Shown in pieces: positions 33,765 through 43,750 of a stretch of 64,000 nucleotides of DNA. The notes beneath the pieces are model-generated. The model was not told the origin of the DNA and made no database searches. It saw only the letters and a program-made list of their open reading frames with translations. The position numbers and the translations under genes are program-made. The DNA is from Pseudomonas sp. HAR-UPW-AIA-41 (GTDB taxonomy: Bacteria; Pseudomonadota; Gammaproteobacteria; Pseudomonadales; Pseudomonadaceae). Every line of letters begins with the position of its first letter. Within the stretch, counting starts at the first letter, position 1. Where the stretch lies: contig NZ_NSLB01000006.1 in NCBI RefSeq assembly GCF_002304225.1, positions 186,001-250,000 on the forward strand, read 5' to 3'.

Positions 33765-34736
33765 GTGCAGCATGTGGTAGCCGCCGCCGTGTACAGCGCC
33801 GGGCACAAGATCCGCGACATCACCCTCGACGAGGGACGGGACTGGGCCAGCAAGCCTGGACACTTCGCCTGGATCGGCCTCCATGACCCCGGAGCCGAGG
33901 AGTTGCGCCTGCTGCAACAGCAGTTTGACCTTCACGAGCTGGCGCTGGAAGACGCTCTGGCCCAGCACACCCGCCCCAAGCTGGAAATCTTCGGCGACGC
34001 ACTGTTCATGGTGCTGTATTCGCCACTACGCATAGACGACCAGCTGCGCTTCATCGAAACCCAGCTGTTTGCCGGCAAGGGCTATGTGATCAGTGCGCGT
34101 TATGGCAATTCGGCGCCCTACTCGACCGTGCGCCAGCGTTGTGAAGCACGCCCCCTGCTGCTGGAGCATGGCGAAGATTTCGTGCTCTACGCCCTGCTCA
34201 GCTTTGTGATCGAGAACTACCGCCCTCTGCTGGAGGAGACACACAGTGAACTCGAAGAGCTGGAGCAGGCTGTGCTGCAGCAACCGCTGGAGCAAACCCA
34301 GATCGAGCAGATTCACGGTCTTCGCCGCGACCTGCTCCGCCTCAAGCGTTACGTCGGCCCGCTGGTGGAAATCTGCCAGGAACTGCAACAGCTGGACTTC
34401 CCGTTCATCGACAAGCACATGCGCCCGTACTTTCGCGATGTGGCCATTCACGTCAACCGCCTGCTGGAAGACCTGACCAACCAGCGAGAAATGGCCGATC
34501 ACGCCATTGAACTGGGCCTGCTGCTGGAAGCCTCCCGGCAGAGCGTGGTACAGCGCAAGTTCGCTGCCTGGGCGGCGATTCTCGCGTTTCCTACGGCCGT
34601 TGCCGGGCTTTACGGCATGAACTTCGACTTCATGCCAGAGCTGCGCTGGCACTACGGTTACTTCGCGGTCCTTGGGGTTATCGGCAGTGGCTGTCTGGCA
34701 CTGTTTGCCAACTTCAAGCGACTGAAATGGCTGTAG
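33765..34736 (+). CDS. CorA family divalent cation transporter
   Basis: CorA proteins are pentameric inner-membrane channels for Mg2+, Co2+ or (ZntB) Zn2+. The 323-residue protein has the cytoplasmic alpha/beta domain, a long helix rich in E, L and Q, and two C-terminal membrane helices. The pore motif GMN is present in GLYGMNFDFMPEL, at the end of the first helix. Translation starts at GTG, with AAGGAG overlapping the end of the upstream gene. Confidence 0.88.
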   Translation: MQHVVAAAVYSAGHKIRDITLDEGRDWASKPGHFAWIGLHDPGAEELRLLQQQFDLHELALEDALAQHTRPKLEIFGDALFMVLYSPLRIDDQLRFIETQLFAGKGYVISARYGNSAPYSTVRQRCEARPLLLEHGEDFVLYALLSFVIENYRPLLEETHSELEELEQAVLQQPLEQTQIEQIHGLRRDLLRLKRYVGPLVEICQELQQLDFPFIDKHMRPYFRDVAIHVNRLLEDLTNQREMADHAIELGLLLEASRQSVVQRKFAAWAAILAFPTAVAGLYGMNFDFMPELRWHYGYFAVLGVIGSGCLALFANFKRLKWL

Positions 34737-34739
34737 AAC

Positions 34740-34979
34740 TCAGAAGAGTTCGATATCCGCACCGCCGTCATCACGATTGCGCTCATTCGCTTCTGTAAGC
34801 ACCAGCTCCTTGAGTTGCGCAAGGCAGCTGTCACTCAGTGCAGCAATGTCCAACCCACGAAAGCGCCGACTCTGAAACTGGGCGGTAATGAAGCAGTTAT
34901 AGTGGGCCAGACCTTGTCCGGGGATGCTGGTGACCTCGGAATGGCCCACCAGATTCAAATCGCAGTACATACAGCGCAT
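34740..34979 (-). CDS. 79-residue Cys/His protein under GEMM riboswitch control
   Basis: I do not recognise this family. The protein opens with MRCMYCDLNLVGHSEV and continues GLAHYNCF, giving a C-x2-C...H...H-x2-C pattern consistent with a small zinc-binding knuckle. The C-terminal half is charged and probably helical (LKELVLTEANERNRDDGG). The start has UAGG five bases upstream. It is convergent with the CorA-type gene. A cyclic-di-GMP-class riboswitch precedes it, so it may act in surface attachment, motility or signalling. Confidence 0.7.
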   Translation of the reverse strand: MRCMYCDLNLVGHSEVTSIPGQGLAHYNCFITAQFQSRRFRGLDIAALSDSCLAQLKELVLTEANERNRDDGGADIELF

Positions 34980-35059
34980 GACAACCTACAAAAATCCAGT
35001 CAATAGGTGTCATGGGCGAATGCCCAGTGAGATGCCATTCCCAGCGGAGGGGAATGGCC

Positions 35060-35140
35060 TGCAACCCCGCTATCCTGAGCTTGCGCTGTTAGACCGGAGG
35101 CTTTGCGTCACTGCCTTTCGACAGTTTTGCCCATGACAAC
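35060..35140 (-). ncRNA. GEMM (cyclic-di-GMP-I) riboswitch aptamer
   Basis: The minus strand contains GGGCAAAACTGTCGAAAGG, then GTGACGCAAAGCCTCCGG, and the 3' part AGGATAGCGGGGTTGC. These match in order the core of the V. cholerae Vc2 aptamer: the GGGCAAA segment, GAAA tetraloop, ACGCAAAGCCTCCGG, and the tetraloop receptor ending TAGCGGGGTT. The middle G of GGG, whose change to A switches specificity to cGAMP in this class, is kept, favouring c-di-GMP. Downstream are hairpins at 35034-35058 and 35013-35026, and then the start of the 79-residue gene. Confidence 0.85.
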
Positions 35141-35173
35141 AAAACGGGCGTGGATTCTAAGGTCCACGCCCGT
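35141..35173 (-). terminator. Intrinsic terminator of the glutamine amidotransferase gene
   Basis: On the minus strand an 11-bp perfect stem ACGGGCGTGGA/TCCACGCCCGT (35173-35163 and 35154-35144) is followed by TTTTGTT. It overlaps the riboswitch promoter. Confidence 0.8.
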
Positions 35174-35181
35174 GATGTCAA
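35154..35181 (-). promoter_or_regulatory. Promoter of the riboswitch transcript, embedded in a terminator
   Basis: A perfect -35 TTGACA (35181-35176) and -10 TAGAAT (35159-35154) are 16 bp apart on the minus strand. Transcription would start near 35147, just upstream of the aptamer. The spacer and -10 lie in the terminator stem and loop of the upstream gene. Confidence 0.7.
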
Positions 35182-35207: not shown

Positions 35208-35927
35208 TCAGGCAGCCTTGCCCTGAGCCACGAAGCGCATCATCCACTCTGCCACTGCACTACCCTGCTGCTCCTTGGCCAGGCTCTCAACAGCACGCTC
35301 ATAGAGGGCTGGCTCATAGCTCTCACGGCGCAGGTTGAGCAGGTCACGGGTGTAGTCGTGAATAAACTCAGGATGACCCTGGAAGCACAGCACCTGATCG
35401 CCGATGTGGTAAGCCGCGTTCGGGCAGAACTCACTGGTGGCAATCAGCGTGGCATTCTCCGGCAGGCGGGTGACCTGATCCTGATGGTAGATCAGCATGT
35501 CCAGCGTCTCGCCGGCAGGCTCCATCCAGCTGGGTTTGCTGGTGATCTGGTAACGGTGTACGCCAATGCCCCAGCCCTGTTCAGCGCGCTCGGTGTAACC
35601 ACCGAGGATCAGCGCCAGCAGCTGGTGACCAAAACACACCCCCAGCAGCTTCTCGCCACGCTCATAGAGCCCCCTGACGTAGTCACGCAGGGTCAGAATC
35701 CAGGGGTCGGAACCAAAGGAGTCGGCCTTACTACCCGTAATCAGGTATGCATCGTAGCGTCGGTCCTCGGGAGGGTACTCTCCGTTGACGACGTTGTAGA
35801 CCTCGAAGTCCGCCTCGATCGGCTGTTTACTGAACAGCTGCTGGAACATGTGACCATAGCCTTTGTACTGGTCAGCCAGCTGGGGGCGAAGGTGATCGGT
35901 CTCTAGGATGCAAATGCGCTGTGGCAT
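35208..35927 (-). CDS. Class I glutamine amidotransferase-like protein
   Basis: The 239-residue cytosolic protein has the class I amidotransferase fold, with nucleophile Cys in LLGVCFGHQLLALI and the His/Glu pair in CFQGHPEFIHDY. It resembles the stand-alone GMP-synthase-like amidotransferases, some of which act as gamma-glutamyl hydrolases, and has no synthetase domain. Substrate unknown. It is monocistronic, with a terminator that contains the next gene's promoter. Confidence 0.8.
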   Translation of the reverse strand: MPQRICILETDHLRPQLADQYKGYGHMFQQLFSKQPIEADFEVYNVVNGEYPPEDRRYDAYLITGSKADSFGSDPWILTLRDYVRGLYERGEKLLGVCFGHQLLALILGGYTERAEQGWGIGVHRYQITSKPSWMEPAGETLDMLIYHQDQVTRLPENATLIATSEFCPNAAYHIGDQVLCFQGHPEFIHDYTRDLLNLRRESYEPALYERAVESLAKEQQGSAVAEWMMRFVAQGKAA

Positions 35928-42091: not shown

Positions 42092-42334
42092 TTAGGTTTC
42101 AGTCCCAGCAGCTCGTGCCATGTTTGAAACCGAGGTAGTTGTCTGCTCGGCGGCACATGCACGATCACGGCCAGCTGTCTTGGCCGCATAAAGAGCCTCA
42201 TCGGCACGCTGGATCAGATCATCAAGACTTTCACCTGATGCCAACTGCGCAACACCAGCGCTCAAGGTGTAAGACTGCCCGGTTGAAAAACGACAATGGT
42301 GCAGCTTCTCCAGAATACGTTCAGCAAACTGCAT
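42092..42334 (-). pseudogene. Remnant of a GGDEF-domain gene (C-terminal part)
   Basis: The 80-codon frame encodes only the last third of a GGDEF domain: AERILEKLHHCRFSTGQSY, LSAGVAQLASGES, then LIQRADEALYAAKTAGRDR. The catalytic GGDEF motif and everything upstream are missing, and the 84 bases before it do not continue the domain. It is convergent with the SDR gene and directly downstream of an intact cyclase gene, so it may be what is left of a tandem paralogue. Confidence 0.7.
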
Positions 42335-42418
42335 GGCCTTTTACTGAGTCGTCTCAAGGCAGATCAGCCATCGTAGGTAGAGAAAAAGTCGTCAATCACG
42401 CAACGAGCACCTACAGCA

Positions 42419-43750
42419 TCAAAGGTCAGAATCGGTCGCAAGCAGGAAACGGTTACCGCCGGCCCTCTTGGCTTGATACATCGCATGATCGGCACGCTGC
42501 AACAGATGCTGTGCATCATCGCCATGCAGAGGATAGATAACACCGCCGATACTGGGCAGAACATATTGCGCCAGCCCTTCTAGATCAAAAGCCTGACTGA
42601 GCGTGAAGCGAATTTTCTCGGCTATTGCGGCAACATCTTCAGCAGTGCCTACATCCTCGAGCAACACAATGAACTCATCGCCTGCCAAACGCGCCGCAGT
42701 ATCCGACACACGAATGCAGCCCTGCAAACGCTGAGCAACCATCTGTAGCAAGTGGTCACCCGCCTTATGACCAAGACTGTCATTAACCTGCTTGAACTTG
42801 TCCAGATCCAGAAACAACAGTCCCAACTGTGCTTGCTCGCGTTTAGCCCGTGCCAGGGCAATATGTAGACGGTCAAACAACAGTGCTCGGTTGGGCAAGC
42901 CGGTGAGTGGATCGAACTGCGCCATGAACTGCAACCGACTGAGCATGCGCTGCCGCTCGATAAAAGTGGCAAGCTGCGTCGAAACGTAATGCAGTAGCCG
43001 CTTATCCTGATCGGTAAATCGAGCCTCAGGTGGCCCTCTAAGGATCAAAACCCCCTGACCGTCTTGGCCAACCACCAGCGGAACGCCCATCCAGATACGC
43101 AAGTCAGCCACGGTCGGGTTGTCCAGACTTGAAGCCTCGACGCAATCCCCCGTGCCATGGATGACTTGCTGAGCAAAATCCAACATCGCAGCGCTATCCG
43201 CGACCACGGCAAGCGGATACACCACATCCAACCGACGCCCATGCTCCCCTGGCAGAACAGCGATGAAATAACTGCGAGGTATCAATTCGGCGATGATTTG
43301 ATCAATGCGCAGCAGCAAACCAGACAGATCCTGCGCCTCGTGAGCAGCCTCTGAAATCGCAAAGGTTGCTGCCTGCAGTGACTCGCTGCGCTTTCGCTCG
43401 GTAATGTCATGGGCTACAGCCACCCGCACCTGGTCAGCCTCAGACCACCTCGCTGACCAGAGGATATGAACCGTTTGCCCATCCTTGCGCACGTAGCGGT
43501 TCTCAAAGCAGAGCATATCCACACCATCCATGATGTCGCGCGCTGCCTGCAGGGTTCGATCCCGATCATCCGGGAAAACCAGGTCAATCATCGCGCGGCC
43601 AATCATCTCATCGGGCGAATAGCCAAAAATCCGCTCACAGGCTGAGCTGACGCCTACAAAACGACCGTCACGACTGACAACACAGATGGCATCGAGCAAC
43701 AGATCCATCACATTGTTGTTGACCATGAAACCGGCTTTTCTCATTGGCAT
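42419..43750 (-). CDS. PAS-GAF-GGDEF diguanylate cyclase
   Basis: This cytosolic enzyme makes c-di-GMP from two GTP. The roughly 443-residue protein has a PAS domain (DAICVVSRDGRFVGVSSACE to VAHDITERKRSE), a GAF-like domain (about 145-265) and a C-terminal GGDEF domain. The active site reads AGDEF, a common active variant, and the inhibitory I-site RVSD lies exactly five residues upstream. No membrane segment or EAL domain is seen. The start is uncertain: ATGs at 43759, 43750 and 43744 are all possible. Confidence 0.88.
   Translation of the reverse strand: MPMRKAGFMVNNNVMDLLLDAICVVSRDGRFVGVSSACERIFGYSPDEMIGRAMIDLVFPDDRDRTLQAARDIMDGVDMLCFENRYVRKDGQTVHILWSARWSEADQVRVAVAHDITERKRSESLQAATFAISEAAHEAQDLSGLLLRIDQIIAELIPRSYFIAVLPGEHGRRLDVVYPLAVVADSAAMLDFAQQVIHGTGDCVEASSLDNPTVADLRIWMGVPLVVGQDGQGVLILRGPPEARFTDQDKRLLHYVSTQLATFIERQRMLSRLQFMAQFDPLTGLPNRALLFDRLHIALARAKREQAQLGLLFLDLDKFKQVNDSLGHKAGDHLLQMVAQRLQGCIRVSDTAARLAGDEFIVLLEDVGTAEDVAAIAEKIRFTLSQAFDLEGLAQYVLPSIGGVIYPLHGDDAQHLLQRADHAMYQAKRAGGNRFLLATDSDL

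Follow-up and report, generated by a model that had tools for sequence, protein, structure and literature searches.

A c-di-GMP-I riboswitch upstream of a small Cys/His protein gene in a Pseudomonas lineage

Genes and signals at the locus

In the window, the 64,000-nucleotide stretch of Pseudomonas DNA analysed here, a glutamine amidotransferase gene and a corA-like gene are convergent and 471 nt apart, with a riboswitch and a small gene lying between them. The features of the locus are listed below with the evidence for each.

33765..34736, plus strand: corA-like gene, convergent (Pfam CorA, 171.9 bits)
34740..34979, minus strand: gene of a 79-residue protein with a putative zinc module (C-x2-C...H-x2-C) and an ELF end (ORF list, family alignment)
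35057..35141, minus strand: c-di-GMP-I (GEMM-I) riboswitch aptamer (RF01051, 74.4 bits, E 9.5e-13)
35144..35173, minus strand: terminator-like hairpin of the upstream gene, with an 11-pair stem, an 8-nt loop and a T-rich tail (pattern scan)
35154..35181, minus strand: sigma-70-like promoter TTGACA-16-TAGAAT (11 of 12 consensus matches)
35208..35927, minus strand: upstream gene, glutamine amidotransferase class I (Pfam GATase, 52.2 bits; ORF)

The first-pass annotation of this DNA had put a GEMM-I aptamer on the minus strand directly upstream of a 79-residue Cys/His ORF, and both elements were found where it had them. The RF01051 covariance-model search that it had proposed gave 74.4 bits, where the gathering score is 35 bits, and aligned over the full model (1-87 of 87). 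The ORF lies at 34979-34740 and has the motif C3-x2-C6...H26-x2-C29. On the same strand, 77 nt separate the aptamer from its start codon, and its end is 3 nt from that of the convergent corA. No terminator-like site was found in 33765-34760, and the transcripts of the small gene and corA may overlap.

A new observation is that the riboswitch and small gene sit, as a unit, between convergent genes that lie side by side, with no such unit, in 21 of 24 amidotransferase-bearing congeners (stops -23 to 234 nt apart, median 42; no small-protein match between the two genes in these 21). The remaining three congeners have no corA within the 1.5 kb examined. Among 348 sampled genomes of the genus, the small gene was found in one, the window's own. 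By these comparisons the unit appears to be lineage-specific at this site, and its absence in congeners suggests that a gain is more likely than many losses.

Pseudomonas fluvialis S00202 is the sole named relative found; it carries both the aptamer (73.1 bits with RF01051) and the small gene, and a search for further leader orthologues returned P. fluvialis only. Between the two species, 83 of 86 aligned columns are identical in the aptamer (96.5%), 71 of 78 in the expression platform, 26 of 31 in the terminator/promoter and 27 of 34 (79%) in the intergenic DNA before the terminator, with corresponding counts of 668/720 for the upstream gene, 205/240 for the small ORF and 864/972 for corA. 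In the small ORF, 31 codons differ but just 9 residues. We judge this gene to be real and under purifying selection because its P. fluvialis orthologue is 89% identical at the protein level and dN is 0.056 compared with a dS of 0.756 (NG86; dN/dS about 0.07).

Ahead of the aptamer, the sigma-70-like promoter is partly superimposed on the upstream gene's terminator hairpin, its -10 box sitting in the hairpin loop, an arrangement that is also new here. The pattern scans gave an expectation of 0.3 promoter-like sites with 11 of 12 matches in the 701-base region, and one terminator-like site where 0.8 were expected in shuffles. In P. fluvialis, the promoter-like site TTGACA-17-AAAAAT has 10 of 12 matches and a 17-nt spacing, and the alignment shows the hairpin stem kept, with one pair changed on both sides (U-A to C-G); the scan, which allows loops of 8 nt, lists no terminator there, where we read the loop as 9 nt. 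Given the overlap of promoter and terminator, the mRNA probably begins close to the aptamer, and the predicted promoter would place the transcript start near 35145-35147.

The aptamer and its ligand

A scan of the whole window with Rfam gave five matches above cut-off, namely four tRNAs and the c-di-GMP-I aptamer. All 21 mappable consensus pairs of the aptamer are canonical, and one further pair touches gap columns. We transferred Vc2 numbering to the Rfam model as model position + 9, using as anchors the residues named in passages of PMC3764141. Under this numbering, 16 of the 17 highly conserved Vc2 positions listed in those passages are kept in both the window and P. fluvialis, and the 17th, G90, corresponds to U in the Rfam consensus as well as in the window. 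The equivalents of G20, A47, A48 and C92 are all present, as are the inter-helix pair C44-G83 between P2 and P3, the bases G32 and A35, and the GAAA tetraloop. The apex pair of P1, G14-C93, is impossible because position 93 is an A, and a P1 adjoining the pocket is absent, the longest complement within 14 nt of C92 being 4 nt.

Since the equivalents of G20, A47 and C92 are present, c-di-GMP is the expected ligand and is favoured over cGAMP. We take an A at position 20 to be the mark of the cGAMP-selective GEMM-I type, and this position is G in both the window and P. fluvialis. Position 20 is described as a selectivity factor in passages of PMC9262584, and the contact positions G20, A47 and C92 are those given in passages of PMC4744006 and PMC3764141. 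Riboswitches of the GEMM kind that respond to cGAMP do exist (PMC8835794), but the G at position 20 makes 3',3'-cGAMP, in place of c-di-GMP, a highly improbable ligand for this aptamer.

GEMM-I aptamers had been expected from the first reading to be unusual in this genus, and the counts agree: RF01051 occurs in 6 of the 398 genomes sampled, the window's own among them, for a total of 10 aptamers under stricter filters. In a set of 57 relatives it occurs in four, three of them above cut-off (own included), and in the whole genome (3.72 Mb in 58 contigs) a single aptamer of the family was found. Behind six of the nine other aptamers of the genus (L010-L015) is a gene for an M11-like metallopeptidase, called by Pfam at L011 and judged from similar translations at the other five. 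The three others precede a DUF4402 protein (L007, by Pfam), a molybdopterin-domain protein (L009, by Pfam) followed by a GGDEF-like ORF read from the sequence, and a protein without a Pfam match (L008) followed by a GTPase-like reading frame, likewise read from the sequence. The riboswitch in the window thus belongs to a known class, but the gene that it precedes is an unusual target. A GEMM riboswitch of a Pseudomonas was named in no title or abstract start among the literature matches listed, nor in passages of PMC9943018 and PMC4744006, and the literature search gave no paper joining Pseudomonas fluvialis and c-di-GMP.

Two further patterns were seen among these loci. The aptamers that precede the similar M11-like genes come two per genome (G243, G245 and G309), 11 kb apart in G309, and the strand past C92 at these six contains AGGAG, complementary to the 5' strand. 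DUF4402 genes stand behind aptamers in two families, at L007 in this genus and at L002 in another family of the same order, and are followed at both by a second small ORF of similar appearance.

The first-pass annotation had also pointed to a GGDEF cyclase in the window. The domain is real, at about 42449-42922, but its presence is little evidence for a c-di-GMP role of the small gene, because the 51 GGDEF matches above cut-off in the genome amount to about 0.88 per 64 kb, and chance alone would be expected to put one in this window. It is fair to infer that the cell produces c-di-GMP. A partial second match at 42161-42355 on the minus strand (model positions 90-161, one stop inside) lies beside the intact domain (42449-42922, minus strand) and is perhaps a duplicated, decayed end. 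The density of 51 matches in 3.72 Mb seems high, as counted in this genome alone.

The expression platform and the sign of the switch

The platform between the aptamer and the small gene offers two mutually exclusive pairings, an anti-aptamer helix and a sequestor of the ribosome-binding site (RBS). The segments involved are as follows.

34978..34988, minus strand: sequestor 3' arm UAGG-U-UGUCAU, spanning the Shine-Dalgarno-like UAGG and bases 1 and 2 of the start codon (sequence and folding)
35004..35013, minus strand: sequestor 5' arm AUGACACCUA for the ribosome site (folding of the aptamer-held leader)
35008..35017, minus strand: GCCCAUGACA, the 3' half of the anti-aptamer helix, its AUGACA common to the sequestor arm (folding)
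35013..35026, minus strand: hairpin H2 (UGGGC-AUUC-GCCCA), an alternative to the anti-aptamer helix (folding)
35034..35058, minus strand: hairpin H1 of the expression platform, 9 bp, identical in both species (folding)
35129..35138, minus strand: aptamer 5' strand UGUCAUGGGC, with G20, G21 and C22, the 5' half of the proposed anti-aptamer helix (complement search)

What is new here is that the aptamer 5' strand is complementary to a platform segment that alternatively pairs with the ribosome-binding site. UGUCAUGGGC is perfectly complementary to GCCCAUGACA over 10 nt, the long partner lying 44-53 nt past C92, and a 10-nt complement between C92 and the start codon was reached in 7 of 5000 dinucleotide shuffles. 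The corresponding complement in P. fluvialis is 9 nt, reached in 12 of 5000 shuffles. At 12 other aptamer loci (L002-L004 and L007-L015, with L004 below the RF01051 cut-off), the longest such complement in 84 nt is 4 to 6 nt, where C92 was counted from the end of the Rfam match and may be a few nt off at some loci. Complementarity between the platform and the RBS alone is not rare, being reached in 223 of 5000 shuffles for the window and 779 of 5000 for P. fluvialis. Nine letters of the start site, GUUGUCAUG, recur in the aptamer 5' strand of the window, and the longest run common to the two places in P. fluvialis is 6 nt. P. fluvialis has lost, with no compensating change, the tenth anti-aptamer pair together with its counterpart in the sequestor. 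Covariation is absent because there are just two orthologues and the 9-bp core of the helix is invariant between them.

A transcription-termination platform was also considered and rejected, as the pattern scan found no terminator-like site downstream of the aptamer in 34600-35057. Termination is unlikely because no U-tract follows H1.

In free transcripts of 137-163 nt, the anti-aptamer helix has a probability of 0.97-1.00 in both species. For longer leaders, the helix probability in the free form and the openness of the RBS in the free and aptamer-held forms were computed at AUG+3, +9, +18, +30 and full length, in which order the values are given.

Anti-aptamer helix, free form, window: 0.22, 0.00, 0.00, 0.04, 0.71
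Anti-aptamer helix, free form, P. fluvialis: 0.79, 0.12, 0.49, 0.66, 0.01
RBS openness, free/held, window: 0.28/0.21, 0.12/0.13, 0.11/0.17, 0.13/0.28, 0.30/0.35
RBS openness, free/held, P. fluvialis: 0.48/0.29, 0.23/0.18, 0.19/0.18, 0.31/0.18, 0.24/0.18

When the aptamer is held and the transcript has reached AUG+3, the probabilities of the outer anti-aptamer pairs drop to 0.07 and 0.10, and folding predicts the sequestor. Equilibrium folding as modelled here leaves the sign of the switch undecided, since it differs between species and between lengths.

Our main reading, to which we assign a probability of about one half, is that the GEMM-I riboswitch senses c-di-GMP and acts as a translational OFF switch on one small protein, which probably binds zinc. 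Transcription would start at the promoter overlapping the upstream terminator. Without ligand, the 5' strand UGUCAUGGGC (G20-C22) would pair with the downstream GCCCAUGACA, a pairing that would dismantle the binding site and keep AUGACA off the ribosome site. If c-di-GMP were bound before the GCCCAUGACA segment is transcribed, the 5' strand would stay in the aptamer; AUGACACCUA would then pair with UAGGUUGUCAU, the Shine-Dalgarno sequence and start codon would be masked, and synthesis would fall. On this reading, most synthesis of the protein would take place when c-di-GMP is low. We find this cotranscriptional OFF switch somewhat more likely than an ON switch, at roughly 3 to 2, judging by the order of synthesis of its parts and by how Vc2 is reported to behave.

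Its probability stays at just one half because RBS openness in the window has the opposite sign at four of the five lengths, being greater in the free form at AUG+3 only. That sign fits a translational ON switch, in which c-di-GMP would stabilise a distal P1 (UGUCAU/AUGACA) and so free the ribosome site from the sequestor. We hold such a switch to be possible, if somewhat the less probable of the two. In the window, the aptamer-held leader at full length forms the five outermost of nine computed pairs at 0.59-0.93 and has H2 in its predicted structure, the sequestor being at 0.02-0.03; the free window leader at AUG+9 forms the sequestor, with the anti-aptamer helix at 0.00. However, the full-length held leader of P. 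fluvialis keeps the sequestor (0.85-0.96) with the outer pairs at 0.02, and at each of the five lengths the free form in this species exposes the RBS more than the held form does. Ligand would moreover contribute little to an ON switch, given that the outer pairs form in its absence too.

Two other explanations were weighed. The lost apex pair of P1 could mean that c-di-GMP does not regulate the small gene and that what is left of the aptamer has decayed or stands idle, which we consider improbable in view of the identity of the aptamer between species (83 of 86 columns, compared with 27 of 34 in the intergenic stretch preceding the terminator) and the retention of 16 of 17 key positions. Alternatively, corA might be the real target, the riboswitch transcript continuing antisense into this convergent gene across the 3-nt gap, where the stretch free of terminator-like sites (33765-34760) would let it pass. 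This is very unlikely, as purifying selection acts on the small gene and the predicted sequestor takes in its start codon, and close convergent ends are usual here, judging from the stop distances in the 21 congeners that lack the insert.

The small protein and comparison with known systems

Relatives of the 79-residue protein were found by profile search in 15 of 341 genomes of the order and by a two-row profile in 2 of 369 genomes of the class, own included in both. Before alignment we left out L005 and L018 (duplicates), L021 (a near-copy of L020) and L034 (weak, without an ELF end). C3, C6, H26, C29, F40, L56, V60, E63, N65 and R67 are invariant in all 19 aligned members, and 18 of these end in ELF, followed by an A in L029; the exception, L033, has TLF and then G. 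The window protein is probably zinc-binding, and for DUF2175 we assume that the Cys/His set binds metal. The C-terminal half is probably helical, as seen in a low-confidence structure prediction from two rows (window and P. fluvialis) with a mean pLDDT of 55.3, too low for a fold search. Two members in one genome (L031 and L035 in G977) have two tandem Cys/His modules before the common C-terminal half.

A PDB sequence search with the single protein gave no match at E up to 10, and the 19-row profile gave weak matches alone (four at E up to 5, best 0.62, in the C-terminal half). NCBIfam did not match the window protein, its matches to family members were weak and mixed (best 0.012), and the PHROGs matches were weak throughout (best 0.0023). 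Relatives of the small protein were found neither on plasmids nor in viral contigs, the latter queried with the single protein and thus for close relatives only. Gene neighbourhoods of the family vary, with no constant partner beyond lineage synteny among the matches listed. Because no RF01051 aptamer was found within about 1.5 kb at any of 19 family loci other than those of the window and P. fluvialis (L016, L019-L035 and L006, which coincides with L018; E up to 0.5 for L006 and L016 and 0.1 for the rest), c-di-GMP control seems to be local to this lineage and not to belong to the family as a whole.

The c-di-GMP outputs known in Pseudomonas are mostly protein receptors. From its position behind the riboswitch, the 79-residue protein is a plausible effector of the c-di-GMP response and would likely be part of the attach-or-swim decision. 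That it serves as a cytoplasmic adaptor is our guess, prompted by its size, the putative metal site and the conservation of its C-terminal tail, and for the ELF end a clamp-binding or SSB-tail-like role was considered as a possibility. A fuller scenario, which we put forward as speculative and on the whole doubtful, is that a promoter-riboswitch-gene unit entered the P. fluvialis lineage between the convergent genes and put an orphan zinc-module protein, an adaptor acting via its ELF tail, under direct c-di-GMP control, by means of an aptamer that lacks a P1 by the pocket and whose 5' strand mimics its own start site (GUUGUCAUG). If true, an ELF-tail adaptor under riboswitch control would be a kind of c-di-GMP output without earlier description, as far as the literature was searched. 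A single tiny conserved gene behind a riboswitch offers a clean way into an unstudied protein family, and with the signal already named, the phenotype to seek is defined, namely attachment and motility. The platform also provides a compact test of GEMM-I switching without the usual P1.

In comparison with known protein families, we regard this scattered family, with its C-x2-C...H-x2-C motif and C-terminal ELF, as a divergent relative of DUF2175 (PF09943), which the Pfam title names as an archaeal family and for which the literature search gave no paper. DUF2175 matches 15 of the 19 family members at E 0.1 or better, covering the C-x2-C...H-x2-C half, and its 25.1-bit cut-off is exceeded by two of eight other members scanned singly. 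The window protein, in contrast, stays below that cut-off at 18.0 bits, and its family differs in closing in ELF.

Among riboswitches, Vc2 of Vibrio cholerae presumably controls a gene different from that of the 79-residue protein. Both belong to the same aptamer class and have the same ligand contacts, and passages of PMC9262584 describe Vc2 as a translational OFF switch that masks the RBS at a distance and call its helix P1 crucial. However, P1 of Vc2 adjoins the binding site through G14-C93 (passages of PMC3764141), a pair that is impossible here. Cd1 of Clostridioides difficile differs in using a transcription terminator, according to passages of PMC9262584, none being found here in 34600-35057, but it resembles the present aptamer in having no P1 by the pocket, and as described in the same passages it still binds c-di-GMP.
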